From the NCBI GenBank assembly GCA_022870745.1, contig CP085323.1, forward strand, positions 3,286,001 through 3,350,000: a stretch of DNA of 64,000 nucleotides, in the 5' to 3' direction. This stretch comes from Silvibacterium acidisoli. GTDB lineage: Bacteria; Acidobacteriota; Terriglobia; Terriglobales; Acidobacteriaceae. Below are positions 32,900 to 47,517 of the stretch, piece by piece. A program made the position numbers and the translations under genes. Each line of letters begins with the position of its first letter. Within the stretch, counting starts at the first letter, position 1. The notes under the pieces are model-generated. The model saw only the letters and a list, made by a program, of their open reading frames with translations. It was not told the origin of the DNA and ran no database searches.

Positions 32900-34069
32900 A
32901 TGCTTCGACTTCTCAGGACCGTTACGAAGGTCTTCGCGGCTGCCGTGCTCGCGATGTCGCCCGTGCTCTGCCAGGCGCAGGCAGCCGTAGCCTCGTGGCC
33001 TTTGTGGAACGCCTATGCGGCTTCTTTCATCAGCGAACAGGGGCGCGTCATCGATCCTATGCGCGGCGATCTGACGACATCCGAGGGCCAGGCCTACGCG
33101 ATGTTTTTCGCGCTGGTGGCAAATGATCGCGCACGCTTCGAATTACTGCTCGACTGGACGCGCGACAACCTCGCGGGCGGCGATATGACGCAGCGGCTGC
33201 CGGGCTGGTCATGGGGCAAGTCGGCGGACGGCGAATGGAAGCTCGTCGATCAGAATTCAGCTTCCGATGCCGATCTGTGGATGGCCTATAGCCTGACCGA
33301 AGCCGGACGTCTCTGGCAGGAGCCGCGCTACTCAGCTCTTGGCAAGATCATGGCGAGCGAAATTGCCGCGCAGGAAGTGACAGACCTTCCCGGACTCGGC
33401 ACCGTGCTTGAGCCGGGATCGACAGGCTTTCATCCCGATGCCCAGACATGGATACTGAATCCGAGTTATACGCCGCTTCCGTTGACCACGCGCATGGCGC
33501 AGGCCAACCCTGCGGGACCGTGGGCTTCGTTGAGCCACACGCTACCGGTTCTGCTCTCGCGCAGCGCCCGTGAAGGCTATGCGATGGATTGGGTGAGCTT
33601 CAATCTGCATAACGGATTCGCCGCCGCTGCCGCTCCAGGGCAAACCATCGGCAGCACAAAGCTCGGCAGCTACGACGCCATCCGTGTGTACCTCTGGGCG
33701 GGTATGACGAACCCCCAGACTCCGGGTGCAGAAGAAGCAATGTTGGCCGTACCCGGCATGGCCACCTACCTGGCAGAGCATCAGTATCCGCCCGAGCAGG
33801 TAAGTGAGCAGGGCGAAGCCATCAGCGTGAGCGCACCGGTTGGCTTTTCTGCGGCCGTCATTCCATATCTCGACACGCTCGGCAAGGTAGCCGTGCGCGA
33901 CAAGCAGATTACGCGACTCGCCGCAGAGCTGGACCCCGGAACCAGGCTGTACGGGCATCCGGCAGCTTACTACGATCAAAACCTTGTGATGTTCGGCAAA
34001 GGCTGGCTGGATCGGCGCTTCCGCTTTGGCCGCGATGGAGAGTTGAAGGTTACATGGAAAAAACGATAA
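32900..34069 (+). CDS. bcsZ: Periplasmic endo-beta-1,4-glucanase, GH8
   Basis: The open frame begins earlier inside bcsAB, but ATG 32900 follows the bcsAB stop by two bases with GGAG just upstream, giving 389 residues. A signal peptide covers residues 1-27 (ending LCQAQA). GH8 motifs: LTTSEGQAYAMFFAL with the acid Glu, and NSASDADLWMAYSL with the Asp base region. It trims or edits nascent cellulose in the periplasm and is needed for normal export in several species. It overlaps bcsC by 16 bases. Confidence 0.93.
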   Translation: MLRLLRTVTKVFAAAVLAMSPVLCQAQAAVASWPLWNAYAASFISEQGRVIDPMRGDLTTSEGQAYAMFFALVANDRARFELLLDWTRDNLAGGDMTQRLPGWSWGKSADGEWKLVDQNSASDADLWMAYSLTEAGRLWQEPRYSALGKIMASEIAAQEVTDLPGLGTVLEPGSTGFHPDAQTWILNPSYTPLPLTTRMAQANPAGPWASLSHTLPVLLSRSAREGYAMDWVSFNLHNGFAAAAAPGQTIGSTKLGSYDAIRVYLWAGMTNPQTPGAEEAMLAVPGMATYLAEHQYPPEQVSEQGEAISVSAPVGFSAAVIPYLDTLGKVAVRDKQITRLAAELDPGTRLYGHPAAYYDQNLVMFGKGWLDRRFRFGRDGELKVTWKKR

Positions 34070-37000
34070 CGACGCGCCTGCGGAAGCTGGGACTGACAGC
34101 TGCACTCGCGGCCATGATGGCGACATTTGTTTCCCCGGGTCATGCACAATCTGCGGTATCCATCCTGCTCGAGCGTGCTCGCACTCAGGAGCAGGCAGGC
34201 CACATCGATCTGGCGGCACAGTCCTGGCAGCAGGTGCTGCTTTCTGATCCGAAAAATACCGAAGCGCTTGCCGGACTTGCCCGCGCCGCGAAGATGTCCG
34301 GCAATCAGGCCGAAGCAAACAAATATCTGGCGCGCCTGCGGCAGGTGAACCCGGCGGATCCGAATCTCTCGCTTGTCCAGAGCATGCAGTCGACCTCGGC
34401 ACAGAACGCGCAGCTGCAGCAGGCGGCACATCTCGCACAGCAGGGGCAGGCTGAGGAAGCCTTGAAGATTTATCGCCAGGTATGGGGATCGCATCCTCCC
34501 GACGGCAACTGGGCTCTCGCTTATTACGACACCGAGGCGGGTACCGACAGTGGACGAGCTGACGCAGTCAATGGGCTGCGAGGACTGGTAAAGAAATATC
34601 CCAACGACTCGCGCTATGCGATCACCCTGGGCCGCATCCTTACCTATCGCGCGCAGACCCGCGACGAAGGCGAAACGATCCTGCGCGAGCACACGCAGGA
34701 ACCGGCGGCGCAGGCCGCGCTGCGCCAGTCGCTCGTCTGGGATTCGCAGAATCCTCGCGCCGCCGAACAGATTCGCGACTACCTGCGCCAGCATAAGGAC
34801 GCGGAGTTACAGCAATCCTTCGAAGAAGCACAGACGCGCCAGGCGCACACTCCCGCGCCATCTGGCATGGGTGGCCCCGAGCAGGCTGCCTATAGCGCGC
34901 TCAGCGCCGGTCGTGTGGACGAAGCGCAGAGCCGTTTTCTCGCCATCGAAGAGAAGAACCCCGACAATCCTCGTGCCCTTGCCGGCATGGGTTTCGTGCG
35001 CATGAAGCAGGGGAACTTTGCAGATGCCATCGGCTACCTGGAACAGGCGCAGCAGCATGGAGCCAACGACAAAGCCGTTTCCGACGCCTTGAACACCTCT
35101 CACTTCTGGTTCTCCGTTCAACAGGGCACCACCGCTCTGAACGACAACCGGCTCGACGAGGCTGCGAATAAGTATCAGTCTGCGCTACAAATGCGGCCTG
35201 ACGCCCCTGAAGCTCTCGAAGGGCTCGCCGGAACGTACCTTAAAGCGAATCGCCCGAACGACGCAGCCAACGTCTATCTGCGCATCACCCAGGTGCAACC
35301 GAAGTTCGCCGGAGGTTGGCGCGGGCTATTCGCTTCACAGGTGCGCGCCGGTGACTCCGCCGCGGCCATCGCCACATCGCAGCGTTTTCCGGCAGTGGTG
35401 CGCGACGAAGTCGCGAACGACCCCGAATATCTTGGCGATCTCGCCTCGGCCTACACCGCGACCGGGCAGGATGCTGAAGCGCAGCAGGTGCTCGCGCGCG
35501 CCCTTACGCTGCCTTTTCCTGACAATGGCCGTAATATGAAAGCCGCAACTCGCCTACAGTATGCAGGGCTGCTCGCGCAGGACAAGCGTTACGCACAGGC
35601 CGCGGGGCTATATCGCGACATCATCGAAGATGACCCGGATAACGCGAGCGCATGGCAGGGGCTGGTCTCAGTGCAGCATGAAGCAGGACACGATGCCGAA
35701 GCCGTCGAAACCGTCGAGCGCATTCCCCCCGCAACCTACGAAATAACCTTGCAGGACGCAGGCTTCCTCGCCCTGCTGGCTTCGATCTATCAGCAGCAGA
35801 ACCATGATGACGTGGCCCTCGGCTTCCTGCAGCGTGCCGCCAAGGCACAGGCAGATGCAGGGCAGACCGTGGCAGTGCCGCTGCAACTGCAGCTTGCCGC
35901 CATCTATCTGCAGCAGAACAATCCGCAGCAGGCGTACACGATCTACCGCAACGTGCTCACGCAAAACCCCGGCCGCATCGATGCGTGGAAGGGTTTGTTC
36001 TCCGCACTGCATCAGACCGGCCACGATCAGGACGCGCTAGCGCAGTTGCAGCAGGTGCCCCCCGATGCACGCCGCTCGCTCGATGCCGATGTGCAGTTTC
36101 AGCAGACTATCGCAGCAGTCTACGCAGCCACCGGAAACCAGGCCGCCGCAACCCAGATGCTGCAACGCATCCAGGCCCACTACCGTTCTACCGGAGGAGT
36201 CATCCCCGGCGACATTGCCATTCAGAATGCATGGCTGCTCTTCAACACCAAGGACGATCGCGGGCTATACCGCGCACTGATGGCACTCGGGGGCCGGACC
36301 GATCTCACTGACGACCAGCGCCGCACCGTGCAATCCATCTGGACGTCATGGAGCGTGCAGCGTGCCGGGCAGGCCGTCGACGCGGGCCGCACCAGCCGCG
36401 CGCTCGAGATCCTCAACACAGCTTCACAGGCCTTTCCCGACAATCCCGGTGTGAGTAAGACGCTCGCTCCTGCTTACGTCAAGGCCGGAGACGCGAAGCG
36501 TGCCATGGCGATCTATAACTCGCTCGACATGACCAATGCCAGCGCGGCCGACTACCAGGGCATGATCGGCGCGGCTCTGGCCGTGCCCAATCTTCGCCAG
36601 GCCGAGGCCTGGCTGCGGCAGGCCCTCGATGCCTATCCGCACGACCCCTCCATCCTGTCACTTGCTGCCCGCTTCGAGCAGGCACGCGGAGACAACCCTC
36701 GTGCCGCTGCCTACTGGCAGGCTTCGATCAATGCGATGCCGAATGAAACCCCGGCTAACAAGCTGGCGCATACACTCGACAAGCCCGACCTGGAAACGCG
36801 CCCGGCACAGCAGCGAACGCTCGCCGGCCTGCTCAATCCCGATGCCAACGACGGCATGGGGACCGTAGCAGCGCGCCCCGCATTGCCCGGCTACGAGAGC
36901 GCATCGGCAGCGGGAGGAAGCGGACTCTACGGCCCCGATCCCTACAGCGTGGGACATGCCCCGGTGACCTTCAACGGAGAGGGCAGCGCGCAGTCCGGCA

Positions 37001-39186
37001 ATACCCAGACGACAACGACGACCACCACGACAACAACGTATGCACCGCCGGCGCAGAAGACCGCACGCCCGGCATCCGCTCCGGCTCTGAGACCGGTTAC
37101 TCCAAGACCGGTTGCTCCCAAGCCGGTTACCACTCCAGCGCCGGTAGTTCATCATCATCGTCCTGCTTCAACAGGCACTTCATCGCATACCTACACGACC
37201 ACGCATACAACCACCACCACGACGGGCACTTCCGGCAGCAGCTACGGAAACTCCAGCGAGCGCCTCGGCGACTACGTTCCACAGTCGAACGCCGTTCCCA
37301 CTTCTTCGCTCGAAGCACCCAAAGTGACCGCGTCTCCTTCGCAGCCTGAGAACGCATTCGCCGCGCCAGAACCTCCACCCGCCGACAGGAGCCTTCGCGG
37401 TGGCTCTGGCATCACTGCTTCAGGTTCCGAAGGCCCGAAGATGCTGGACGACGCCCAGCTGCACCTGACCATTTCTTCAGGTCAGATTGCGCCATCGGGC
37501 GATGTACTCGAAGAGCTTCGCAAACGGCAGAAGAACGCGCCATCCCCTGCGGCAGAATCTTCTCCAGTAGAGCTTACGCTCGAGCAGAGTCCGGCGATCG
37601 GCTATGTGCCCAGCGGTTCTGCTTCCGTGGAAGCTTACAATCGCGCATCGACAGCACTGGCTACTGCCGAGCAGCCGGTGAATGCCGCGTTCGTGACCCC
37701 GCAGACCGCACCGGCCGCGCAACAGGTTGAATCGCAGCCATACAGGCAGATGCACCTCACGCAGATGCCGCAGCAGCAACTGTACGCGCAGACCGAGCCG
37801 CTGCCCACGGTTCCACCCGCACAGTCGCAGATCGCTCCGCCTCCACCCGGTTGGCGCAAGGTCAAGCAGACGACCGTGACCACCACAACCACCACCGTCA
37901 ACAACAATGCGCAGCAGCAACAGCAGGGCGCGAGCGATCAGCAATTGCAGCAGGAGGATCTGCCCCCGCTGCGTGGACCCTATGGACCGAAGCGTCCGCC
38001 GCACATGCGCAATCCGCGTGAAGAAGCCGAGATGCAGCTGGCGACAATTGATGGCGGATATAGCCCCTGGATGGGCGGTACCGGATATGTAAACCATCGC
38101 AGCGGCACTGCCGGGTTCGATCAGTTGACCGCCCTTGAAGCGCCCTTCGAAGCCTCCGCGATTGTTGGCAACGCAGCGCGCCTTACGTTGGTGGTTTCGC
38201 CATCGTTTCTCGATTCCGGCGTAGCCGACGGCACCAGTACCAATCGCCTCGGGACCGCGGCAGTCGGTGCGACCCCGGCGCAGCAAAGCCTCGCAGGCGT
38301 TGGCGGAGAAGTACAGCTCACAACAGCAAACTTCGGGATTGCCGCCGGCTATACACCCTATGGCTTCCTTGTCTCGAACGCCACGGGCCGCTTCAACTGG
38401 CGTCCCGCTGCTGGTCCTCTTACATTCCGCTTCTCTCGTGAACCCATCAAGGATTCGCAACTGTCATACGGAGGCATGCGCGATCCCGGTTCTGTCGGCC
38501 CGGGCTACGACGGCAATATCTGGGGCGGCGTGATGACGAATGCCGGCAACGTGCAGTTCGGCAAAGGCGATTCCCAGTCCGGCTACTACTTCGGCATGGG
38601 AGGCCAGTACATCACCGGCCATCATGTTGAAAGCAACAGCCGTATCGATGGCGTGGCCGGAGCCTACTGGCGCGTGTTGACAGTGCCCGATACCGGAGAC
38701 CTCACCATCGGCACGAATTTCTTCGGCATGCACTACACGCACAACCTGCGTTACTTCACCTATGGACAGGGCGGATACTTCAGCCCGCAGGCCTATATGC
38801 TCGCCAATGTACCGGTGACATGGAACGGCCGCTACGGCGTCAACTTCCATTACACGGTTGCAGGCGCCTTCGGCCTGCAGGCTTTCCAGGAAGACACCAG
38901 CCCGTTCTTCCCGCTCGATCCCGCATTGCAGGTAGCGAACAGCAACCCCAGCTATGCAGGACAGACGGTCGTTGGCAGCAACTACGATCTGCATGCGGAG
39001 GGCGCCTATCATCTCACCGATCACTGGTATGCCGGGGCGTACGTGTCGTTCAACAACACGCGCGACTACGCCAATCAGACGGTGGGCTTCTTCGTACGAT
39101 TCCTCATCCGCCCGCAGTACCAGACCGAACAGGGACCGACTGGGCTATTTCCGATGCAGGGCAACCGCCCCATCATGGTTCCGTAA
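34054..39186 (+). CDS. bcsC: Cellulose export outer-membrane protein (TPR scaffold plus beta-barrel)
   Basis: A 1710-residue protein, ATG 34054 inside the end of bcsZ. Signal peptide 1-32 (ending PGHAQ). TPR repeats fill about residues 33-870. A Pro/Thr/Gln-rich linker follows with Thr runs near 984-990, 1050-1056 and 1275-1280, longer than in E. coli BcsC. The BCSC C-terminal barrel starts near 1325 (SPWMGGTGYVNHRSG) and runs to the end. The periplasmic TPR part contacts the synthase and the barrel exports glucan. At about 1700 residues it is some 500 longer than enterobacterial forms. The gene ends before a strong hairpin. Confidence 0.95.
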   Translation: MEKTITTRLRKLGLTAALAAMMATFVSPGHAQSAVSILLERARTQEQAGHIDLAAQSWQQVLLSDPKNTEALAGLARAAKMSGNQAEANKYLARLRQVNPADPNLSLVQSMQSTSAQNAQLQQAAHLAQQGQAEEALKIYRQVWGSHPPDGNWALAYYDTEAGTDSGRADAVNGLRGLVKKYPNDSRYAITLGRILTYRAQTRDEGETILREHTQEPAAQAALRQSLVWDSQNPRAAEQIRDYLRQHKDAELQQSFEEAQTRQAHTPAPSGMGGPEQAAYSALSAGRVDEAQSRFLAIEEKNPDNPRALAGMGFVRMKQGNFADAIGYLEQAQQHGANDKAVSDALNTSHFWFSVQQGTTALNDNRLDEAANKYQSALQMRPDAPEALEGLAGTYLKANRPNDAANVYLRITQVQPKFAGGWRGLFASQVRAGDSAAAIATSQRFPAVVRDEVANDPEYLGDLASAYTATGQDAEAQQVLARALTLPFPDNGRNMKAATRLQYAGLLAQDKRYAQAAGLYRDIIEDDPDNASAWQGLVSVQHEAGHDAEAVETVERIPPATYEITLQDAGFLALLASIYQQQNHDDVALGFLQRAAKAQADAGQTVAVPLQLQLAAIYLQQNNPQQAYTIYRNVLTQNPGRIDAWKGLFSALHQTGHDQDALAQLQQVPPDARRSLDADVQFQQTIAAVYAATGNQAAATQMLQRIQAHYRSTGGVIPGDIAIQNAWLLFNTKDDRGLYRALMALGGRTDLTDDQRRTVQSIWTSWSVQRAGQAVDAGRTSRALEILNTASQAFPDNPGVSKTLAPAYVKAGDAKRAMAIYNSLDMTNASAADYQGMIGAALAVPNLRQAEAWLRQALDAYPHDPSILSLAARFEQARGDNPRAAAYWQASINAMPNETPANKLAHTLDKPDLETRPAQQRTLAGLLNPDANDGMGTVAARPALPGYESASAAGGSGLYGPDPYSVGHAPVTFNGEGSAQSGNTQTTTTTTTTTTYAPPAQKTARPASAPALRPVTPRPVAPKPVTTPAPVVHHHRPASTGTSSHTYTTTHTTTTTTGTSGSSYGNSSERLGDYVPQSNAVPTSSLEAPKVTASPSQPENAFAAPEPPPADRSLRGGSGITASGSEGPKMLDDAQLHLTISSGQIAPSGDVLEELRKRQKNAPSPAAESSPVELTLEQSPAIGYVPSGSASVEAYNRASTALATAEQPVNAAFVTPQTAPAAQQVESQPYRQMHLTQMPQQQLYAQTEPLPTVPPAQSQIAPPPPGWRKVKQTTVTTTTTTVNNNAQQQQQGASDQQLQQEDLPPLRGPYGPKRPPHMRNPREEAEMQLATIDGGYSPWMGGTGYVNHRSGTAGFDQLTALEAPFEASAIVGNAARLTLVVSPSFLDSGVADGTSTNRLGTAAVGATPAQQSLAGVGGEVQLTTANFGIAAGYTPYGFLVSNATGRFNWRPAAGPLTFRFSREPIKDSQLSYGGMRDPGSVGPGYDGNIWGGVMTNAGNVQFGKGDSQSGYYFGMGGQYITGHHVESNSRIDGVAGAYWRVLTVPDTGDLTIGTNFFGMHYTHNLRYFTYGQGGYFSPQAYMLANVPVTWNGRYGVNFHYTVAGAFGLQAFQEDTSPFFPLDPALQVANSNPSYAGQTVVGSNYDLHAEGAYHLTDHWYAGAYVSFNNTRDYANQTVGFFVRFLIRPQYQTEQGPTGLFPMQGNRPIMVP

Positions 39187-39268: not shown

Positions 39269-40396
39269 CTACTTCTTCTCGCGCCTCATGGGAACTACCT
39301 GCACCGTCGTCTCACGCATCTCGGCCAGAAACCGATTGAGGACAGAGCCGCGCAACAGGATGTCGAAGCGCGAGCGTGCGGATTGCCCGAAGACGACGTG
39401 CGAAATATTCTCGCTCTGGGCAAAATCGATCAGCTTATCGGAGACGCTCTTGCCCTTCAGGATGACGACCTTGGCGCCGAGTTCGCGTGCCATGCGTTCG
39501 TATTCTTCAAGGCGCGCCGCGGCTTCAGGATCGCCGCCGTGCTTGCGGTCTTCGCCGCCCGTTTCCACGTAAACCGCGTACCAGTTGGTTGCCAGCCTGC
39601 CCGCAATGCGGGAGCCGGCACGTAGCAGCCGCTCTGTGCCAGGGCGGGACGAGAGGCAGACCATCACTTTTTCTGGAATGGGCGCCTGCTCGAGACCCTG
39701 GTTGCGCCGGTACTGCGCAGCAGCGCTGCCCACCTGCTCAGCCGTGGTGCGAAGGGCCAGCTCGCGCAGCATGTTCAGGTTGCCCTTGCGGAAGAAGTTC
39801 GAGAGCGACTGCTCGATCTTTTCCTGCGAATAGATCTTGCCCTCGCGGAGCCGGGTCCGCAGCTCATCGACTGTGATATCGACGTTGACGACTTCATCGG
39901 CGCGCTTCAGAAAGCTGTCCGGCACGGTTTCGCGGACCTGAGTGCTTGCCGAGCGCGAGACCGCATCGTTCAGCGTTTCGAGATGCTGAATATTTACCGC
40001 CGTCATCACGTTGATGCCGGCATCCAGCAGCTCCAGCACATCTTCATAGCGCTTGCGATTGCGCGAGCCCGGAACATTCGTGTGCGCCAGCTCGTCGACG
40101 ATGCACGTATTGGGATGCCGCGCGAGAATGGCATCGAGGTCCATCTCTTCGAGCGTTACAGAGCGATAAGGCACCAGCCGCAGCGGTGTCTTTTCAAGAT
40201 CCTGGATCAAAGCCGCCGTTTCGGCGCGGCCATGTGTCTCGACCAGCCCGATGACGACATCGACACCCTGCCTCTTGAGAGCATGTGCCTGCTCGAGCAT
40301 GCGATAGGTCTTGCCTACTCCCGGGGCGGCGCCGAGATACACCCGCAGCTTCGCGGGCTCAACCTGAGGCTGGATTTCGTCAGAAAGATCGGCCAT
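39269..40396 (-). CDS. Stand-alone KdpD-type sensor domain plus universal-stress domain
   Basis: A 375-residue protein from ATG 40396. Residues 17-220 match the N-terminal KdpD domain: LRVYLGAAPGVGKTYRML with a Walker A, VETHGRAET, CIVDELAHTNVPGSRN as Walker B region and VNIQHLETLND. Residues about 230-370 resemble the USP domain of KdpD, which in some bacteria binds c-di-AMP, though the published binding pattern is only partly present (CLSSRPG, WYAVY). The membrane and kinase parts of normal 900-residue KdpD are missing. Its start overlaps the stop of the kinase-like gene by one base (TGATG), so the two are translated together and probably act together. kdpFABC and kdpE are not in the window. 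Confidence 0.9.
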   Translation of the reverse strand: MADLSDEIQPQVEPAKLRVYLGAAPGVGKTYRMLEQAHALKRQGVDVVIGLVETHGRAETAALIQDLEKTPLRLVPYRSVTLEEMDLDAILARHPNTCIVDELAHTNVPGSRNRKRYEDVLELLDAGINVMTAVNIQHLETLNDAVSRSASTQVRETVPDSFLKRADEVVNVDITVDELRTRLREGKIYSQEKIEQSLSNFFRKGNLNMLRELALRTTAEQVGSAAAQYRRNQGLEQAPIPEKVMVCLSSRPGTERLLRAGSRIAGRLATNWYAVYVETGGEDRKHGGDPEAAARLEEYERMARELGAKVVILKGKSVSDKLIDFAQSENISHVVFGQSARSRFDILLRGSVLNRFLAEMRETTVQVVPMRREKK

Positions 40397-42195
40397 CAGC
40401 CCACCTCCACAGGATGCCGCGTCGCTGCGCTGGTTGCGATCGGCAGCGTGAAGCTGAAGGTGGTTCCGCTGCCGAGCCTGCTTTCTACCGATGCCTGGCC
40501 GCCCAGCGATTCCACGAGCCGCCGCACCAGCGCAAGTCCCAGGCCGGTGCCTTCGCCGGATCCGCCGGAAAAGCGTCCGAAGATGCCCGGCAGGCGCTCT
40601 GCTTCAATACCACGGCCGGAATCGCGAACGAAGAACTGCACCTTGTCTTTCATCTCCGTCGCTTCGAGCAGAATCTCGCCGCCCTCGGGCGTGTAGCGGA
40701 GCGCATTCGAAATGAGGTTATCGAGAATGCTGCGTGCTGCCCGGCGGTCAGCATTGACATAGCTCAGATCCTCGTAGGCCCGCAGATCGATATCGATTCT
40801 CTTTCTTTGCGCCTCGCCGCGATGTCGCGCGATACCATCGTTGAGAATATCGAAAGGACGCAGCTTCTCGATCTTCATCTCGCGGCGGCCTGTCTCAAGC
40901 TCACCCACCTCGATCAGGTCGGCCATCAGGTCATTCAACTGCTCGGCTTCCTGCTCCGCACCGCCGACCAGGTCGCACTGCAGCGGGCGAAGTTCGCCCG
41001 CGTGTCCTCTTGAGAGCGCATAGAGAGAAAGTCGAAGTCTCTGCAGCGGATCGCGCAGCTTCTGCGAGGCGACAGAAAGAAACCGCGTCTTGAAGCGGTC
41101 CACTTCCTGCAATTGCGTAATGTCTTCAAGAACCGTGACCGCTCCCAGCAGCTTGTTTTCGCTGTCGCGCATCGGCGTGGTGCGCAGGCGGTAATTGCGC
41201 TGCTCTTCACCGATGCGCATCGGCAACAGCGCAGCTTCACCTTCGCCGGTAGAGGCGCGCTGCATGGAGACGGCCATACGGATCGCTTCCAGGATTTTTT
41301 CTCCGCCGGGCGTATTGGTCAGCACCATCCTGTCCGACGAGCCTTTACCCAGCAGCTCGACCGAAGCCTGGTTCAGCTTGAGCACGCGTCCCTTCGCGTC
41401 CGTCACGATCACCGGCTCGAAGATCGACTGCACGACCGCGTCGCTCAGCTGATGTTCCATCTGCAGGCGTCCCGATTCGCTTTCGCGCAGGTCGCGCAGC
41501 CGTGCGATCATGCGATTCATCTCGGCCGTGATCACGCCGAAATCGTCCTTCTGACGCCACTCGATACGCTGCTGCAGGTCTCCCTGGCCGATGCGGCGAA
41601 CCGTCTTTGCCGTGCTGCGAATGGGACCCACCACGAAAAAGATCATCACGGCGGCGACCGCGGTGGCCGTGACTATGGCAGCTCCGCAGGCGCTGATCAA
41701 TCTCGCGCGCAGGCGCGATTGCTGGTGATCGAGGTCCGCCACGATCGCGCGATGCTGCGCGCGCAATGTACGAAAAGCACTCGTGGTCGTGGCGCTCAGT
41801 TGTTCCAGGCGGCCAGCCAGTTCGCTGTAGCTCTCATGGTTATTGGTAATGATGGCGCGATGCTGCGCTTCCAGCGCGGCGACCGGGATATCCGGAGCAA
41901 AGGCATCCACTGCCGAGTGAGCAGTGGCGAACAGCGACTGGGTCTCCTGCTGCCTCGCCGCGAGCTCCGCCGGAACGCCGCTTTCCCCGTGTGCCACGCG
42001 CGCGGCCAACATCTCTTCAGACGCCAGCGAGGCACGTGCGTCAGCCAGTGCAGCCAGCGCGGCATCGGCCGTATGTTGCGAAGAGTCCACCGCGCCCAGC
42101 GCGACAAACGATGTGCGGACGAGCATGCTCACGCCGGTCACGATAGCAACCAGCAGGAGTCCGCCCAGAACCAGCCTTTGATAAAGAGTCAGCAT
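40396..42195 (-). CDS. Histidine-kinase-like membrane protein (HAMP-PAS-HisKA-HATPase) lacking the phosphoacceptor His
   Basis: A 599-residue protein from ATG 42195. Two membrane helices (about 8-27 and 168-191) flank a periplasmic coiled region. A HAMP domain, then a PAS domain (FEPVIVTDAKGRVLKLNQASVELL in pieces) and a dimerisation helix follow. In that helix the sequence is FLSVASQKLRDPL; the family has S-H-E-L-R-x-P, so Gln378 (codon CAG, 41062-41064) replaces the phosphorylated His. The ATPase domain looks intact: DNLISNALRYTPEGG, DSGRGI and GTGLGLALVRRLVESLGG. It may be a pseudokinase that still binds ATP. It overlaps the KdpD-sensor gene and follows the ClC gene by 50 bases. Confidence 0.9.
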   Translation of the reverse strand: MLTLYQRLVLGGLLLVAIVTGVSMLVRTSFVALGAVDSSQHTADAALAALADARASLASEEMLAARVAHGESGVPAELAARQQETQSLFATAHSAVDAFAPDIPVAALEAQHRAIITNNHESYSELAGRLEQLSATTTSAFRTLRAQHRAIVADLDHQQSRLRARLISACGAAIVTATAVAAVMIFFVVGPIRSTAKTVRRIGQGDLQQRIEWRQKDDFGVITAEMNRMIARLRDLRESESGRLQMEHQLSDAVVQSIFEPVIVTDAKGRVLKLNQASVELLGKGSSDRMVLTNTPGGEKILEAIRMAVSMQRASTGEGEAALLPMRIGEEQRNYRLRTTPMRDSENKLLGAVTVLEDITQLQEVDRFKTRFLSVASQKLRDPLQRLRLSLYALSRGHAGELRPLQCDLVGGAEQEAEQLNDLMADLIEVGELETGRREMKIEKLRPFDILNDGIARHRGEAQRKRIDIDLRAYEDLSYVNADRRAARSILDNLISNALRYTPEGGEILLEATEMKDKVQFFVRDSGRGIEAERLPGIFGRFSGGSGEGTGLGLALVRRLVESLGGQASVESRLGSGTTFSFTLPIATSAATRHPVEVG

Positions 42196-42245: not shown

Positions 42246-44018
42246 TCAGTGGGAGTACTCCTGGTACCGCTTGAGGATCTTCTCGAGCGTGACCACCCCT
42301 TCCACTTTTCCCTTGACCGCCCGGTTCATAATCGGCAGAACCGGCCAGCGGGGAAAGTAGTGCAGCGTGGTGTCGAGCGGAAGATCCGGGAACAGAACCG
42401 GCGTGCGATCCTGCTTGATGGCTTTTTCAAGCAGCGTGTCCGGAGTCTGCGCCGCAGACACACCCGTCAGCTCTTCGCGGGACATGCAGTACCACGACCC
42501 GTCCCAGACCTGAACAAGCAACGCCTGAGATCCCGACTCGCCCAGCGATGAAGCAGCTGCGGCAATCGTGTCGCTGCCGCGCAGCACCGGTAAATTGAGC
42601 GGCTCGATTGCATCTTCTATATGCAGGCTGCTTTCCTCGCGCTGCTCTTCCATCGAAGGCAATTCCAGGCCATCCTGGTGCGTAAAGACCTCGAAGATGG
42701 GAACCGGGGTGAGGCTGCGGGACATCAGGTAAGCGATGGTGTTCGCAAGAATCACCGGCAGAATGATCGAGTAGTTTCCGCTCACCTCCAGCACCATGAA
42801 AACCGAGGTCAGTGGAGCGCGCAGGAAGCCGGCAAACAGTACGCCCATGCCGACCAGCGCGTAGGAGCCGATCGTGCCGGTGAAGTGTGGAAAGAATGCC
42901 TGTTCGAACGAGCCTACGCCTGCACCGAGCATCGCTCCGATAAAGAGCGTCGGCGCAAACATGCCGCCCGGCGTGCCGCTTGAAAACGACAGTGTGGTAG
43001 CCAGCATTTTGAACAGAGCCAGGATAAACAGCATCTTCCAGGCGAACTGGCCATGCATGGCCTGGTCCATTACGCCGTATCCTGGGCCCATCACCTGCGG
43101 CAGCCCGAAGAATCCGATAGCGCCGACCATGAGCCCGGCAATCGCAGGCTGTGCCACCTGCGTCCAGCGCGGCAGGGCGCGCAGCCGGGGACGAAGATAG
43201 CCAAGCGCCTTCGAAAAGACCAGCGCAAAGATACCGCCGAAGACGCCCAGGACTGCATATGCCAGCAGCTCGCGCGGGTCGCGCAGGATAACCGCCGGAA
43301 TGCGGAACATCGGTTCCGATCCCCAAAAACGGCGCGCGACCACGACGCTCGAAATAGCGGAAAGCACAATTGAACCGAGTACCGCGGCGCTCCACTTGCC
43401 GATCACTTCTTCAATGACAAACAGGATCGCCGAAATAGGGGCGTTAAACGCGGCCGCGAGACCTGCCGCCGCACCGATGGGAGCAAATAGCCGCAGCTTC
43501 TCACGCGAAAGCTTGAGATGCCGGGCCACGATGGAGGCCACGCCCGCGCCAATCTGCAGCGACGGATCTTCCGGCCCGAGCGAGTGCCCGGCTCCGATCG
43601 CCAGCGCAGCGGTAATAAATTTGCCGATGACGGTCTTGAACGAGATGTAGCCGTTGTAGATGTACAGCGCGGCCTTGGTCTGGTTGACGCCGCTGCCGCG
43701 CGCCGCCGGGAAAACCCATTGCACCAGTGCCGCCACTGCCAGGCCTGTAAGCGCGGGAGCGACCAGCAGCCGGTACTGCCCCGGATGCGGAACCGAGCCC
43801 AGCATCAGCACGCGGATCCAGTCGATGGCAATGCGGAAGGAAACGACCAGCAGGCCCGACAGAACGCCAATAAAAATCGACAAAACAAGAAAGAGGCGTT
43901 CGTCGCGGGTGGGCGCGATGCGCCGCATGTCGGAGAACGGACGCCGCTTCGGCTCCGGTTTGCCCGCGATGGCTGCGGTAACGCTTTCTGCGGCCGATGC
44001 CGGGATCTCAACCTTCAC
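42246..44018 (-). CDS. ClC-family chloride/proton exchanger with CBS domains
   Basis: A 590-residue protein from ATG 44018. The membrane part (about residues 40-450) has GSGVNQ at 108-113 (anion site), GHSLGPEDPSLQIGAG with gating-equivalent Glu150, FVIEEV with the proton-pathway Glu at 203/204, and GTPGGMFAPTLFIGA. Those features suggest an exchanger and not a passive channel. After about 470 a pair of CBS-like modules (VLRGSDTIAAAASSL, VLPIMNRAVKGKVEGVVT) could bind nucleotides. The gene overlaps the upstream TPR gene by four bases and precedes the kinase-like gene by 50 bases, hinting at a common ion-homeostasis unit. Confidence 0.92.
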   Translation of the reverse strand: MKVEIPASAAESVTAAIAGKPEPKRRPFSDMRRIAPTRDERLFLVLSIFIGVLSGLLVVSFRIAIDWIRVLMLGSVPHPGQYRLLVAPALTGLAVAALVQWVFPAARGSGVNQTKAALYIYNGYISFKTVIGKFITAALAIGAGHSLGPEDPSLQIGAGVASIVARHLKLSREKLRLFAPIGAAAGLAAAFNAPISAILFVIEEVIGKWSAAVLGSIVLSAISSVVVARRFWGSEPMFRIPAVILRDPRELLAYAVLGVFGGIFALVFSKALGYLRPRLRALPRWTQVAQPAIAGLMVGAIGFFGLPQVMGPGYGVMDQAMHGQFAWKMLFILALFKMLATTLSFSSGTPGGMFAPTLFIGAMLGAGVGSFEQAFFPHFTGTIGSYALVGMGVLFAGFLRAPLTSVFMVLEVSGNYSIILPVILANTIAYLMSRSLTPVPIFEVFTHQDGLELPSMEEQREESSLHIEDAIEPLNLPVLRGSDTIAAAASSLGESGSQALLVQVWDGSWYCMSREELTGVSAAQTPDTLLEKAIKQDRTPVLFPDLPLDTTLHYFPRWPVLPIMNRAVKGKVEGVVTLEKILKRYQEYSH

Positions 44019-45205
44019 TGTTGCTCTCCTTCTGCCTGCGATTGGGCGAGTTTCAGTAAAAGAGCATCGTCGCCGGTAGGTGCGCCACAGATATTCGCGG
44101 TTTGCACCTCGGTGTCGTACACGAGCTGCATCAGGCTCTGCTCCTGATCCTGGTCGCGGGCCAGCTCCGAGGCTGTGAGCTTCGCTGGCACCTGCTGCCA
44201 GCGATTGTTCAAATCGGCCAGATTTGCCGGAGCCTGCGCGGCATTCTCAGAGCAGCCCTGGAGACGCGCACGGGCCAGCCCGACCGCGTTCACAACCCTG
44301 CGGGCACGCTCCATGGCGCGAAGCTCCGGCGCGGGATAGAGCGCCAGCAACCTCTGGGCGTTGGTAAACATCGCGCGGTAGGCCTCACGCTCGTCCTCGG
44401 ATTGCCCGGCAAACTCCGGCTGGGCGATAGCCCGGTCCAGGTAAGTCCGTGCGGCGGCATAACGGCCAAGCGCGAAAGCTGTGCGGCCAGCGCCTTCGAG
44501 TGCCTCCACTCGAGCAGGCTTTTGCTGCGCCAGCTGGTGGTAGACATGGTAAGCGCTCGCCGGATCCTGCGCTGCTTCCATCATCGATGCGATACGCAGC
44601 TTGATTCCCGGGTCGTCTGCGGCGTTGCCTTCCGCAATCAGCAACTGGCTGCGCGCGCTTGCGGGATCGCCGTGGCTCATCAGGTATTGCGAGAGCTCAA
44701 GGCGCACCGAAAGCCGCCGCTGGTAGCCGTCGCCATTCCATACGCCGTCCAGCGCTTCACGGTAGTGGTCGATGGCCAGCTGCTCATGGTTCTGCTTTGC
44801 GGCAAGCCGCGCCAGCTGCAGATGAATCAGCCCATTGCCCGGTTCCGCTTCGAGCAGGGAATTGAAATAGGCGATGGCTTCGGCGGAGCGGCCGCTGTCT
44901 GCAAGTGCGGTCGCCAGTTTGATCTCCGTCTGGCGATCCGGGATGAAGTCGAGAGCGGCCCGGAGCGCCTCGACAGCCTGCGCCGGCCGCCCGGCAGCCA
45001 GGGCGGCATCGCCGCGCGCCAGCCAGCGTTGTCCCAGGGTCTGCCTATGCTGCGTGTAGGAACTGAAAAGGACGTACGTCAGCACCGCCAGCGCCGATGT
45101 AATGGCCAGCAGGCTCGACAGCGCGACGACGTCATTGATAATGAGTTTTCGCTTATCGAGCCGTTCTTCTTCGGTAAGGGTAGGACGCAGCTCCAGAACC
45201 GGCAT
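44015..45205 (-). CDS. Membrane-anchored tetratricopeptide-repeat protein
   Basis: A 396-residue protein from ATG 45205. A single membrane helix at about residues 27-48 (VVALSSLLAITSALAVLTYV) follows a charged N-terminus, so the bulk is probably periplasmic or cytoplasmic depending on orientation; I cannot decide. From about 58 there are TPR-like repeats: RWLARGDAALAAGRPAQAVEALRAALDF, then KLATALADSGRSAEAIAYFNSLLEAEPGN and YHQLAQQKPARVEALEGAGRTAF. Function unknown. Its stop overlaps the ClC start by four bases, so the two are coupled. Confidence 0.8.
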   Translation of the reverse strand: MPVLELRPTLTEEERLDKRKLIINDVVALSSLLAITSALAVLTYVLFSSYTQHRQTLGQRWLARGDAALAAGRPAQAVEALRAALDFIPDRQTEIKLATALADSGRSAEAIAYFNSLLEAEPGNGLIHLQLARLAAKQNHEQLAIDHYREALDGVWNGDGYQRRLSVRLELSQYLMSHGDPASARSQLLIAEGNAADDPGIKLRIASMMEAAQDPASAYHVYHQLAQQKPARVEALEGAGRTAFALGRYAAARTYLDRAIAQPEFAGQSEDEREAYRAMFTNAQRLLALYPAPELRAMERARRVVNAVGLARARLQGCSENAAQAPANLADLNNRWQQVPAKLTASELARDQDQEQSLMQLVYDTEVQTANICGAPTGDDALLLKLAQSQAEGEQQ

Positions 45206-45314
45206 CTATCTATTTACCTTAACGTTCTTCGATGCGGTTAGCCAACGACGACCCCGGCAGATTCGCTCACGTAGCGCATTCGGAGTTACCATCGATGGGG
45301 TCAGGAGCTGGTGC

Positions 45315-46178
45315 ATGAGCGAAGTCGCAACCACGAATACAGGCGCGGATCCGGGTGCCGGCCAGGCGCGGCTGGACGAGTGCATCCGCCGTCTTGGCAG
45401 CGTCATCATTGCCTATTCGGGCGGCATCGACTCTGCCTACCTCGCGTGGTCGGCCAGCCGCGTGCTCGGGGAAAAAGCCGTTGCCATCATCGCAGACTCG
45501 GCCTCCCTGCCGCGCAGCCACTACCGTGACGCGATCGCCTTCGCCGAGGGGCAGGGAATTGCCGTCCGCACCGTGAAAACCGCAGAGCTGGAACGCGAAG
45601 CCTATGCCGTGAACGATGCAAACCGTTGTTTCCACTGCAAGGACGAACTCTTCGACACGCTTGAAAAAGAGCGCGAAGCCATTGGTTTCGACGCCGTCGC
45701 CTATGGCCTGAACCTCGACGACCGCAAGGACTTTCGCCCCGGCCAGCGTGCTGCCGTGGCTCATCGCATCGCCGCGCCATTGGCCGAAGCAGGGCTGACC
45801 AAGGCAGATGTGCGCGCGTTGGCCCGCGAAGCCGGTCTGGAGATCTGGGACAAGCCGGCATCGGCCTGTCTCTCATCGCGTATCGAGTATGGGCGCCGCG
45901 TCACGCCGGAGAACCTCAAAATGGTCGAAGATGCCGAAGAAGGGCTTCGCCTTCTCGGCCTGCGCAACTTCCGTGTGCGCCACCACGGCGCCGTTGCCCG
46001 CATCGAAATCGCTGAATCCGAGATGGCCAGCGTGCTCGATCCGGCAAAGATGCGGCAGATTTCGGTCGAGGTAAAAGCCGCTGGTTTTCAATATGTCGCC
46101 ATCGACTGCGACGGATACCGCTCCGGGTCGATGAACGAAATTCTACCCGTCGAAGTGCTGCTTCGAGCCGGAGCCTGA
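45315..46178 (+). CDS. larE: Pyridinium-3,5-bisthiocarboxylic acid mononucleotide synthase
   Basis: A 287-residue protein; the frame is open from 45102, but ATG 45315 with CAGGAG upstream gives the expected length. A PP-loop SGGIDS at residues 35-40 binds ATP. Cys185 in SACLSSR corresponds to the sulfur-donating Cys of Lactobacillus LarE. Cys105 and Cys108 (NRCFHCK) are two more, and this three-Cys pattern has been linked to iron-sulfur-cluster forms that do not sacrifice the Cys. The enzyme adds sulfur to the nickel-pincer precursor. It is the first gene of larE-larC-larB. Confidence 0.93.
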   Translation: MSEVATTNTGADPGAGQARLDECIRRLGSVIIAYSGGIDSAYLAWSASRVLGEKAVAIIADSASLPRSHYRDAIAFAEGQGIAVRTVKTAELEREAYAVNDANRCFHCKDELFDTLEKEREAIGFDAVAYGLNLDDRKDFRPGQRAAVAHRIAAPLAEAGLTKADVRALAREAGLEIWDKPASACLSSRIEYGRRVTPENLKMVEDAEEGLRLLGLRNFRVRHHGAVARIEIAESEMASVLDPAKMRQISVEVKAAGFQYVAIDCDGYRSGSMNEILPVEVLLRAGA

Positions 46179-46191
46179 CCCCAGGAAAAAT

Positions 46192-47517
46192 ATGCGTATC
46201 GGTTATCTCGAATGTTTCGCCGGCATCAGCGGCGATATGCTCCTCGGATCCCTGCTCGATGCAGGAGTTTCACTTGAGCTACTCCAGTCCACCGCGAAAT
46301 CGCTGGGCATCGGCGCGGAGCTTCACGTCCACGCAGTGGATCGCAGCGGAATCCGCTCCACCAAGGTCGATGTACTGGCCGATGGCAAGCCCGCCGAAGG
46401 GGCGCACGATCATCATCACCACGACCATGATCACGGCCACTCTCACGGCCACGATCATTCCCACAGCCACAAGCATGAGCACGGTCATGATCACAAACAC
46501 GATCACGACCACAAGCACGATCATCCCCACGTGCACGGACGAACCTGGAAGCAGATCCGCGAGCTGATCACGCAAGCTCATCTGCCCGCGAATGCAAAGT
46601 CGCTCGCTTTGCGTACCTTCGAGCTGCTCGCCCACGCCGAAGCAAAGATTCATGGCATGGCGGTGGAAGATGTGCACTTCCACGAGGTAGGAGCCGTCGA
46701 CACCATTACGGATATCGTCTGTGGAGCGGTCGGTCTTACATCCCTGGATGTAGCCCGCTGGTATGCTTCGCCCGTGAATGTTGGCAGCGGTTTCGTCGAG
46801 TGCGCCCATGGACGCTTTCCCGTCCCTGCTCCCGCGACAGCGGAATTGCTGAAGGGGATTCCGACCTATTCCGACGGTCCGAAGAAAGAACTGGTCACTC
46901 CCACCGGCGCGGCGCTCCTTCGCGCCCTCGAATGCAGCTTTGAAGCCCCTGTGATGACGGCGAATGTTATCGGCTACGGTGCAGGAACACGCAACCCGGA
47001 TCGCTTCCCGAATGTGCTGCGACTCTCTATCGGAGAGCTTGGAAATGCGCCGGCGCCAGAATACGAAACCGATTCCGTTACTGTTCTCGAATGCGCCATC
47101 GACGATGCCTCGCCGCAGGTGCTCGCCCACACGATGGAGCTGGCGCTCGAGCACGGCGCGCTCGATGTGATGTCGTCGGCCGTCACGATGAAAAAGGGCC
47201 GGCTCGGAACATTGCTTACCGTTCTTACGCGCCCTGCTGACGCTGGAGCCATCGAAGCACTGCTCTTCCGGGAGACGACAACGCTCGGCATTCGCAGGCG
47301 CCAGGACGAGCGCCTTATCCTCAATCGCAGCTTCGAAACGGTCGAGACGGCTTACGGCAGCATTCGCATCAAGCTCGCCGCCGACAAGCAGGAGCGCCGC
47401 AACGCTATGCCGGAATACGAGGATTGCCGCCGCGCAGCCCGCGAGCACAATATCGCCCTCAAGCGAGTGATCGAAGCCGCGTTGCACGCCTTCGCAGAAA
47501 GCTCCGTGAAAGCATGA
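46192..47517 (+). CDS. larC: Nickel-pincer cofactor nickel-insertion protein (CTP-dependent)
   Basis: A 441-residue protein with AGGA before ATG 46192. MRIGYLECFAGISGDMLLGSLLDAG is the LarC opening (shown as family pattern in pieces). Residues about 72-115 are almost entirely alternating His and Asp/Gly/Lys/Ser, a metal-binding stretch that probably stores nickel. Later PVPAPATAELLKG, ELVTPTGAALLRAL and DRLILNRSF-like blocks follow. In Lactobacillus plantarum a frameshift joins larC1 and larC2; here one frame covers both. The stop overlaps larB by four bases. Confidence 0.94.
   Translation: MRIGYLECFAGISGDMLLGSLLDAGVSLELLQSTAKSLGIGAELHVHAVDRSGIRSTKVDVLADGKPAEGAHDHHHHDHDHGHSHGHDHSHSHKHEHGHDHKHDHDHKHDHPHVHGRTWKQIRELITQAHLPANAKSLALRTFELLAHAEAKIHGMAVEDVHFHEVGAVDTITDIVCGAVGLTSLDVARWYASPVNVGSGFVECAHGRFPVPAPATAELLKGIPTYSDGPKKELVTPTGAALLRALECSFEAPVMTANVIGYGAGTRNPDRFPNVLRLSIGELGNAPAPEYETDSVTVLECAIDDASPQVLAHTMELALEHGALDVMSSAVTMKKGRLGTLLTVLTRPADAGAIEALLFRETTTLGIRRRQDERLILNRSFETVETAYGSIRIKLAADKQERRNAMPEYEDCRRAAREHNIALKRVIEAALHAFAESSVKA

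Follow-up and report, generated by a model that had tools for sequence, protein, structure and literature searches.

Introduction

The KdpD domain has been described as an atypical serine kinase which, at high K+, phosphorylates the serine of the TGES motif of KdpB and thereby stops the KdpFABC pump, and a truncated KdpD with this domain alone suffices for the phosphorylation of KdpB (PMC11018627). Split KdpD chains are reported there to be commonest in the Acidobacteriota and Chloroflexota. The controller of the serine kinase in a split KdpD is left open there, Usp with c-di-AMP being assumed for many species, and in Deinococcus geothermalis it is c-di-AMP, not K+, that stimulates the short KdpD/Usp protein (PMC11018627). 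DivL of Caulobacter is reported to be without kinase or phosphatase activity and a weak binder of ATP (PMC4211667).

Here we describe a locus of Silvibacterium acidisoli at which a histidine-kinase homolog without its phospho-acceptor is encoded directly beside a short KdpD. The window, the whole stretch of DNA that was analysed, comprises 64,000 nucleotides, and the features of main concern within it are:

40396..42195, minus strand: psHK, pseudo-histidine kinase of 599 residues (ATG at 42195, stop at 40396)
41062..41064, minus strand: codon CAG of Gln378, the phospho-acceptor position of psHK (plus-strand bases CTG)
39269..40396, minus strand: KdpD-N, 375 residues, with a KdpD domain (15-222) and a Usp domain (242-358); its start shares one base with the psHK stop (TGATG)

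Results

A Histidine Kinase without Its Phospho-acceptor

psHK consists of an N-terminal membrane/helical sensor part followed by HAMP (residues 188-235), PAS (PAS_4, 260-363), a HisKA domain without its His (369-436; 31.0 bits against a Pfam cut-off of 26.9) and HATPase_c (483-587). Alignment of psHK with HisKA and with solved kinases including DivL assigned the phospho-acceptor position to Gln378, within the dimerisation helix FLSVASQKLRDPL as quoted in the initial annotation, whose claim of a Gln codon where His is expected holds, the coding strand being the minus strand. HisKA kinases carry Glu or Asp at H+1 and Thr or Asn at H+4, the residues of kinase and phosphatase chemistry. psHK has Lys rather than Glu or Gln at H+1 and Asp rather than Thr at H+4, both of which were absent from the initial annotation. 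The HisKA and HATPase_c folds are present together with the N, G1 and G2 boxes, and the canonical phospho-acceptor His is absent. An AlphaFold2 model of the monomer reached a mean pLDDT of 80.5 and a pTM of 0.40; because of the latter, its domain arrangement was left unused.

Forty-eight genomes of 200 surveyed in the same family carried a psHK match of at least 55% identity, while ten further genomes, matching at 29-32%, were excluded from the orthologs. Six more family genomes were added through KdpD-N, and the psHK site was fully readable in 52 rows; a fragment at a contig end (G195) gave a 53rd readable site, Gln, and a second fragment (G021) stops short of it. None of these 53 orthologs has His at the phospho-acceptor site, which does away with a one-off mutation. 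The full rows carry Gln (21), Arg (17), Glu (5), Ala, Asp, Ser and Lys (two each) and Leu (one), and within the 56-row clade of the tree described below the site underwent at least 12 changes, with His never seen. At H+1 the family has Lys (48 rows) or Arg (4), and at H+4 Asp (37), Glu (4), Thr (3), Gly, Asn and Gln (two each), Ala (1) and Ser (1), i.e., neither Thr nor Asn in 47/52 rows. Residues 365-440 of psHK contain no conserved alternative His: the commonest, H398, is His in just 18/52 rows and every other column in at most five, so that a displaced His in the helix was rejected. The initial reading of psHK as a pseudokinase, which His in orthologs or an alternative His nearby would have refuted, survives on both counts.

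As a same-genome control, a simple motif search was applied to seven other kinase loci. It read the H-box in five, all with His; the pattern was unmatched in L004 and L007, the latter being the kdp-locus kinase, whose H-box was read by eye as SVTHELRTPL with the His present. A single-protein scan of the genome contigs for relatives returned 40 pattern stretches, none of which was confirmed.

The ATP site is under constraint. N493, N497, D525, G527, G529, G551 and G553 are invariant in 52/52 rows, in agreement with the earlier statement that the N and G boxes are intact, and dN/dS (NG86) lies between 0.06 and 0.16 in 14 of 15 pairs, one pair being without dS and several dS values exceeding 1, hence rough. 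Invariance and purifying dN/dS also bear out that the gene is not decaying. Averaged over pairs within the family, identity amounts to 0.74 in PAS, 0.68 in DHp and 0.69 in CA, and to 0.35 in the periplasmic stretch. Roughly one family protein in three, with a length of about 470-500 residues, lacks this stretch altogether, so that it is not essential. The ATP lid has six residues in 38/52 family rows against 9-10 in the 6/15 His rows that could be parsed; since four and nine rows were unparsed, nothing is built on this difference.

KdpD-N and the Split KdpD

The stop codon of psHK and the start codon of KdpD-N have an A in common, and close pairing is the rule: of the 53 family loci, 51 have KdpD-N beside psHK in the same orientation and two are cut short by contig ends, and the spacing is -20 to +10 bp in 46 of the 51 (one value of -442 is an artefact of taking the first start codon). 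Exactly one KdpD-domain match above the cut-off was found in 42 of the 45 pair-bearing family genomes, so that the paired KdpD-N is as a rule the genome's only one. A genome of another group (G270, f9) has a KdpD-N of the psHK-partner clade on a contig of 5.2 kb that holds no psHK.

KdpD-N has an intact Walker A motif (G22-T30) and an intact D101/E102 pair, and the Walker A pattern (G-x5-GKT) and the Walker B Asp-Glu are invariant in 51/51 family rows and 65/65 rows overall. The adenine-contacting Trp of E. coli KdpD is Tyr or Phe in KdpD-N, with Tyr also found in the solved Pseudomonas protein 2r8r; Arg182 is invariant and was equated with the adenine-site Arg of E. coli by numbering offset only. 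Against NF038185 (KdpD-like non-kinase potassium sensor) the protein scored 415.2 bits, below the curated cut-off of 550. The description of the partner as KdpD-type in the initial annotation stands, with the refinement that it is the short form, which has KdpD and Usp domains but no histidine-kinase domain. As the short KdpD domain is a serine kinase in the literature (PMC11018627), the idea that psHK passes it a signal would take on another meaning.

KdpD-N contains the only KdpD domain found in its genome. The genes kdpA, B, C and kdpE lie together with that of a 488-residue His kinase (KdpD-C) at about 5.349-5.357 Mb, 2.0 Mb from the psHK pair. This locus holds only the membrane/HisKA half of KdpD, the KdpD N-domain being absent there; KdpD-C comprises DUF4118, HisKA and HATPase_c, with a weak GAF match (0.00053, below cut-off). 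Since KdpD-N matches positions 22-354 and KdpD-C positions 394-882 of one 895-position NCBIfam model for full-length KdpD, KdpD is split in this genome, with separate KdpD/Usp and TM-GAF-HisKA-HATPase chains (GAF weak) alongside KdpE and KdpFABC. The genome's KdpB retains TGES. A porin-like gene stands between kdpE and kdpA (L070:6171-14472).

KdpA is present in 40 of the 45 pair-bearing family genomes. Where it is missing, a close KdpB was found in two genomes (G142, G122) but not in the remaining three (G019, G159, G058; completeness 99, 90 and 83%). G019 (L032/L088) keeps the pair and gave no match to KdpA, a close KdpB, DUF4118 or a c-di-AMP synthase; lacking KdpA and a close KdpB, it must have another target for the serine kinase.

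The c-di-AMP synthase family PF02457 was detected neither in the genome studied here nor in any pair-bearing genome of the family (0/45); the same test was positive for 11 of 14 controls. It is present in three of seven family genomes without the pair (and absent from the other four), in 15 of 16 genomes with His and in all five His-less genomes outside the family, and loss of the c-di-AMP input is therefore not the cause of the loss of His. The known input of short KdpD thus seems to be missing in the pair-bearing part of the family, as judged by the known synthase family and with shared descent uncorrected. This makes psHK the obvious candidate for another input to KdpD-N.

Origin of the Loss within the Phylum

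When 396 genomes of the phylum were searched with the f10 protein, 25 of them yielded 26 matches in all. Seventeen loci in 16 genomes outside the psHK family have an intact His motif, and these more distant loci show that the kinase once worked and ceased to do so in one or two events. A tree of 72 rows unites the His-less rows of f1, f10 and f23, 56 in number, with support of 100/100; the f83 row is placed apart among the His rows, in which case parsimony gives two changes, while a single loss in one clade including f83 is not rejected (p-AU 0.253). At the site itself the His-less genomes outside the family carry Ser and Asn (two f23 genomes), Gln (f83) and Gly (two f10 genomes). A special chemistry of Gln was ruled out by this range together with the Arg, Glu, Ala, Asp, Ser, Lys and Leu seen within the family. 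In f83, L122:7787-9619 encodes a second His-less kinase that adjoins KdpD-N and is more degraded, its row differing at N493 and G553, changes through which ATP binding may also have been lost. One row outside the family has Ile and Glu at these two positions.

Gene order differs between these groups. In f34 (L118-L120) kdpA-B-C is followed by KdpD-N, a kinase with His and one or more receiver-domain genes. In f10 and one f23 genome the order is kdpA-B-C, His-less kinase, KdpD-N, KdpD-C with His and KdpE, and in the other f23 genome and f83 KdpD-C and KdpE lie on the far side of kdpABC. KdpD-C genes are already present in f34, where the His is still intact, and DUF4118, the KdpD membrane module, is found in 46/50 His-less genomes against 4/16 genomes with His, a contrast that follows descent. 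This distribution of DUF4118 and KdpD-C places the loss of His where a second Kdp histidine kinase was present or possible. The pattern is consistent with a relaxed need for the first Kdp histidine kinase, the contrast being confounded by descent.

Neighboring Genes

Two further genes precede psHK:

42246..44018, minus strand: Voltage_CLC-family channel/antiporter gene, 50 bp upstream of psHK
44015..45205, minus strand: TPR-repeat protein gene, overlapping the start of the CLC gene

The CLC gene is probably in one transcription unit with psHK, of which the TPR gene is a possible head. A scan for promoters and terminators gave one promoter-like site (mean of shuffles 1.4) and eight terminator-like sites (mean 5.5, sd 2.8), and was uninformative on the operon. 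Of 55 loci with psHK, 23 have a CLC gene upstream of it in the same orientation, at a distance of no more than 221 bp in 17 cases. In six of the 23 another gene (about 510-530 residues) stands between CLC and psHK; DUF6798 matched weakly in all three examples examined, in one case below cut-off. Receiver domains are absent from the five main genes scanned at the psHK locus.

Elsewhere in the window, a gene at positions 34054-39186 faces the pair and encodes a TPR protein of 1710 residues that includes a BCSC_C domain (cellulose synthase operon C), and positions 45102-47517 on the plus strand hold genes identified by NCBIfam as LarE and LarC, which belong to the nickel pincer cofactor of lactate racemase.

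Discussion

A Proposed Sensor Arm for a Serine Kinase

We suggest that psHK is an old, selectively maintained pseudo-histidine kinase that may act by contact as the membrane sensor or anchor of the co-encoded serine kinase KdpD-N, a reading to which we give a probability of roughly 45%. It draws on the sequence evidence for lost catalytic residues, a constrained ATP site, fixed pairing, intact serine-kinase motifs and a split KdpD. The sensor part and PAS domain of psHK, together with its ATP state, would register an envelope or cytoplasmic signal, which would move the DHp/CA body, with HAMP as part of the sensing path; contact of this body with KdpD-N could then either set the serine-kinase activity or hold KdpD-N near the pump, psHK taking over from c-di-AMP and from the TM/GAF sensor that full-length KdpD has. 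psHK probably binds ATP; this binding, the contact, the direction of the effect and its target are steps that we infer. A more far-reaching version, put forward tentatively, would have a dead two-component sensor turned into a two-protein receptor serine kinase, with psHK replacing both TM/GAF and c-di-AMP and telling KdpD when to shut the pump. Two counterpoints to a role in Kdp only are G019 and the CLC neighbor. The proposal itself is weakened by the KdpD-N of G270 on a contig lacking psHK, by the Tyr or Phe at the adenine site of KdpD-N, by the c-di-AMP synthase of the His-less genomes outside the family and its absence from four of seven family genomes lacking the pair, and by the dispensable periplasmic stretch.

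Alternative Explanations

It is possible, if rather unlikely, that psHK belongs to a histidine-kinase network instead, forming heterodimers with KdpD-C or another kinase in which it lends or withholds its ATP domain and so tunes KdpE and transcription. The ATP pocket has been kept, KdpD-C with its His and KdpE are encoded in the same genome, and heterodimers of the ChrS pseudokinase with HrrS offer a precedent (PMC9491836). However, psHK and KdpD-C share only about 30% identity over DHp/CA and are encoded 2.0 Mb from each other, psHK is tied to KdpD-N and to no kinase gene, and G019 has the pair without any DUF4118 match. The enrichment of DUF4118 proteins in His-less genomes (46/50 against 4/16) would also fit such a network, but is confounded by descent.

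We regard it as unlikely that the pair controls another transporter, most simply the upstream CLC protein, instead of or besides KdpFABC. The position of the CLC genes (23/55 loci, 17 of them close by) and the retention of the pair in G019 without KdpA or KdpB speak for such a target; against it, the pair lies within the kdp locus in f10 and in one of the two f23 genomes, and 32/55 loci are without CLC, many of these with only about 1.5-3 kb of upstream sequence.

Doubtful, too, is a DivL-like reader, in which the DHp of psHK would bind a phosphorylated response regulator and relay its state to KdpD-N. In its favor, the His-intact relatives have a receiver-domain gene directly after the kinase, and DivL (4q20) is the best sequence match of psHK among solved structures (1.4e-28), though a histidine kinase follows near-equal (5.7e-28); in Foldseek DivL (4q20_B) reached a TM of 0.79 by target length, ranking 11th, with a WalK model top by E-value. 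Against it, the five scanned genes contain no receiver domain, and the likeness to DivL is one of general fold.

Phosphorylation of psHK elsewhere, on a displaced His of the helix or through transfer by another chemistry, is very improbable, as residues 365-440 have no conserved His and nothing was found in its favor. That Gln378 reflects a decaying kinase gene or a sequencing error has next to no probability: the site does vary freely among eight residues, but 52 full rows without His, invariant ATP residues and purifying dN/dS contradict both, and they were rejected.

Significance and Comparison with Known Systems

If psHK does serve KdpD-N as its sensor, one class of signaling protein would have been turned into the sensor arm of another. 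In a large group of bacteria the serine kinase has been kept, a c-di-AMP synthase of the known family is undetected, and a kinase-dead membrane sensor is encoded directly with the serine kinase; the question of how the serine kinase is controlled thereby becomes testable with two proteins and one substrate. The loci also form a natural series from kinase to pseudokinase, with His intact, His lost and the pair still within the kdp locus, and His lost and the pair moved away.

Among the closest known systems are loci of other families of the phylum (L118-L120), where a homologous kinase stands beside a homologous KdpD-N (63-66% to that of the psHK pair). They differ from the psHK locus in that the kinase has His, Glu and Thr, the pair lies within the kdp locus, KdpD-N comes first and a receiver-domain gene follows the kinase. 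The split KdpD of the literature, a KdpD/Usp serine kinase plus a TM/GAF/DHpCA histidine kinase, is exactly the split of this genome, but a further protein of HAMP-PAS type, dead as a kinase and adjacent to the serine kinase, does not figure in the relevant sections, which assume control through Usp (PMC11018627). In the open-access literature, a kinase-dead histidine kinase combined with a KdpD serine kinase was not found in print.

With its kinase fold under selection and its acceptor His replaced, psHK joins the pseudo-histidine kinases. The ChrS pseudokinase of evolved Corynebacterium glutamicum is likewise an inactive histidine kinase acting through partners; it arose, however, by a laboratory frameshift in the CA domain, whereas psHK is old and has kept its CA domain (PMC9491836). 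DivL resembles psHK in its HisKA/HATPase body, its PAS domain, the replacement of the His (Tyr550 in DivL) and the retained N and G boxes, and it works without kinase activity (PMC4211667). In our alignment H+1 and H+4 are still Glu and Thr in DivL, whereas psHK has Lys at the former and its family mostly Asp at the latter; the Gln, Lys and Asp of psHK, against Tyr, Glu and Thr, set it outside the DivL family. DivL, moreover, reads DivK~P, while psHK is a HAMP protein encoded with a serine kinase (PMC4211667). psHK plausibly works like DivL but is not DivL. DivL and the split KdpD are precedents, and what is new here is that a serine kinase is the paired partner and that the loss of His reaches so deep.
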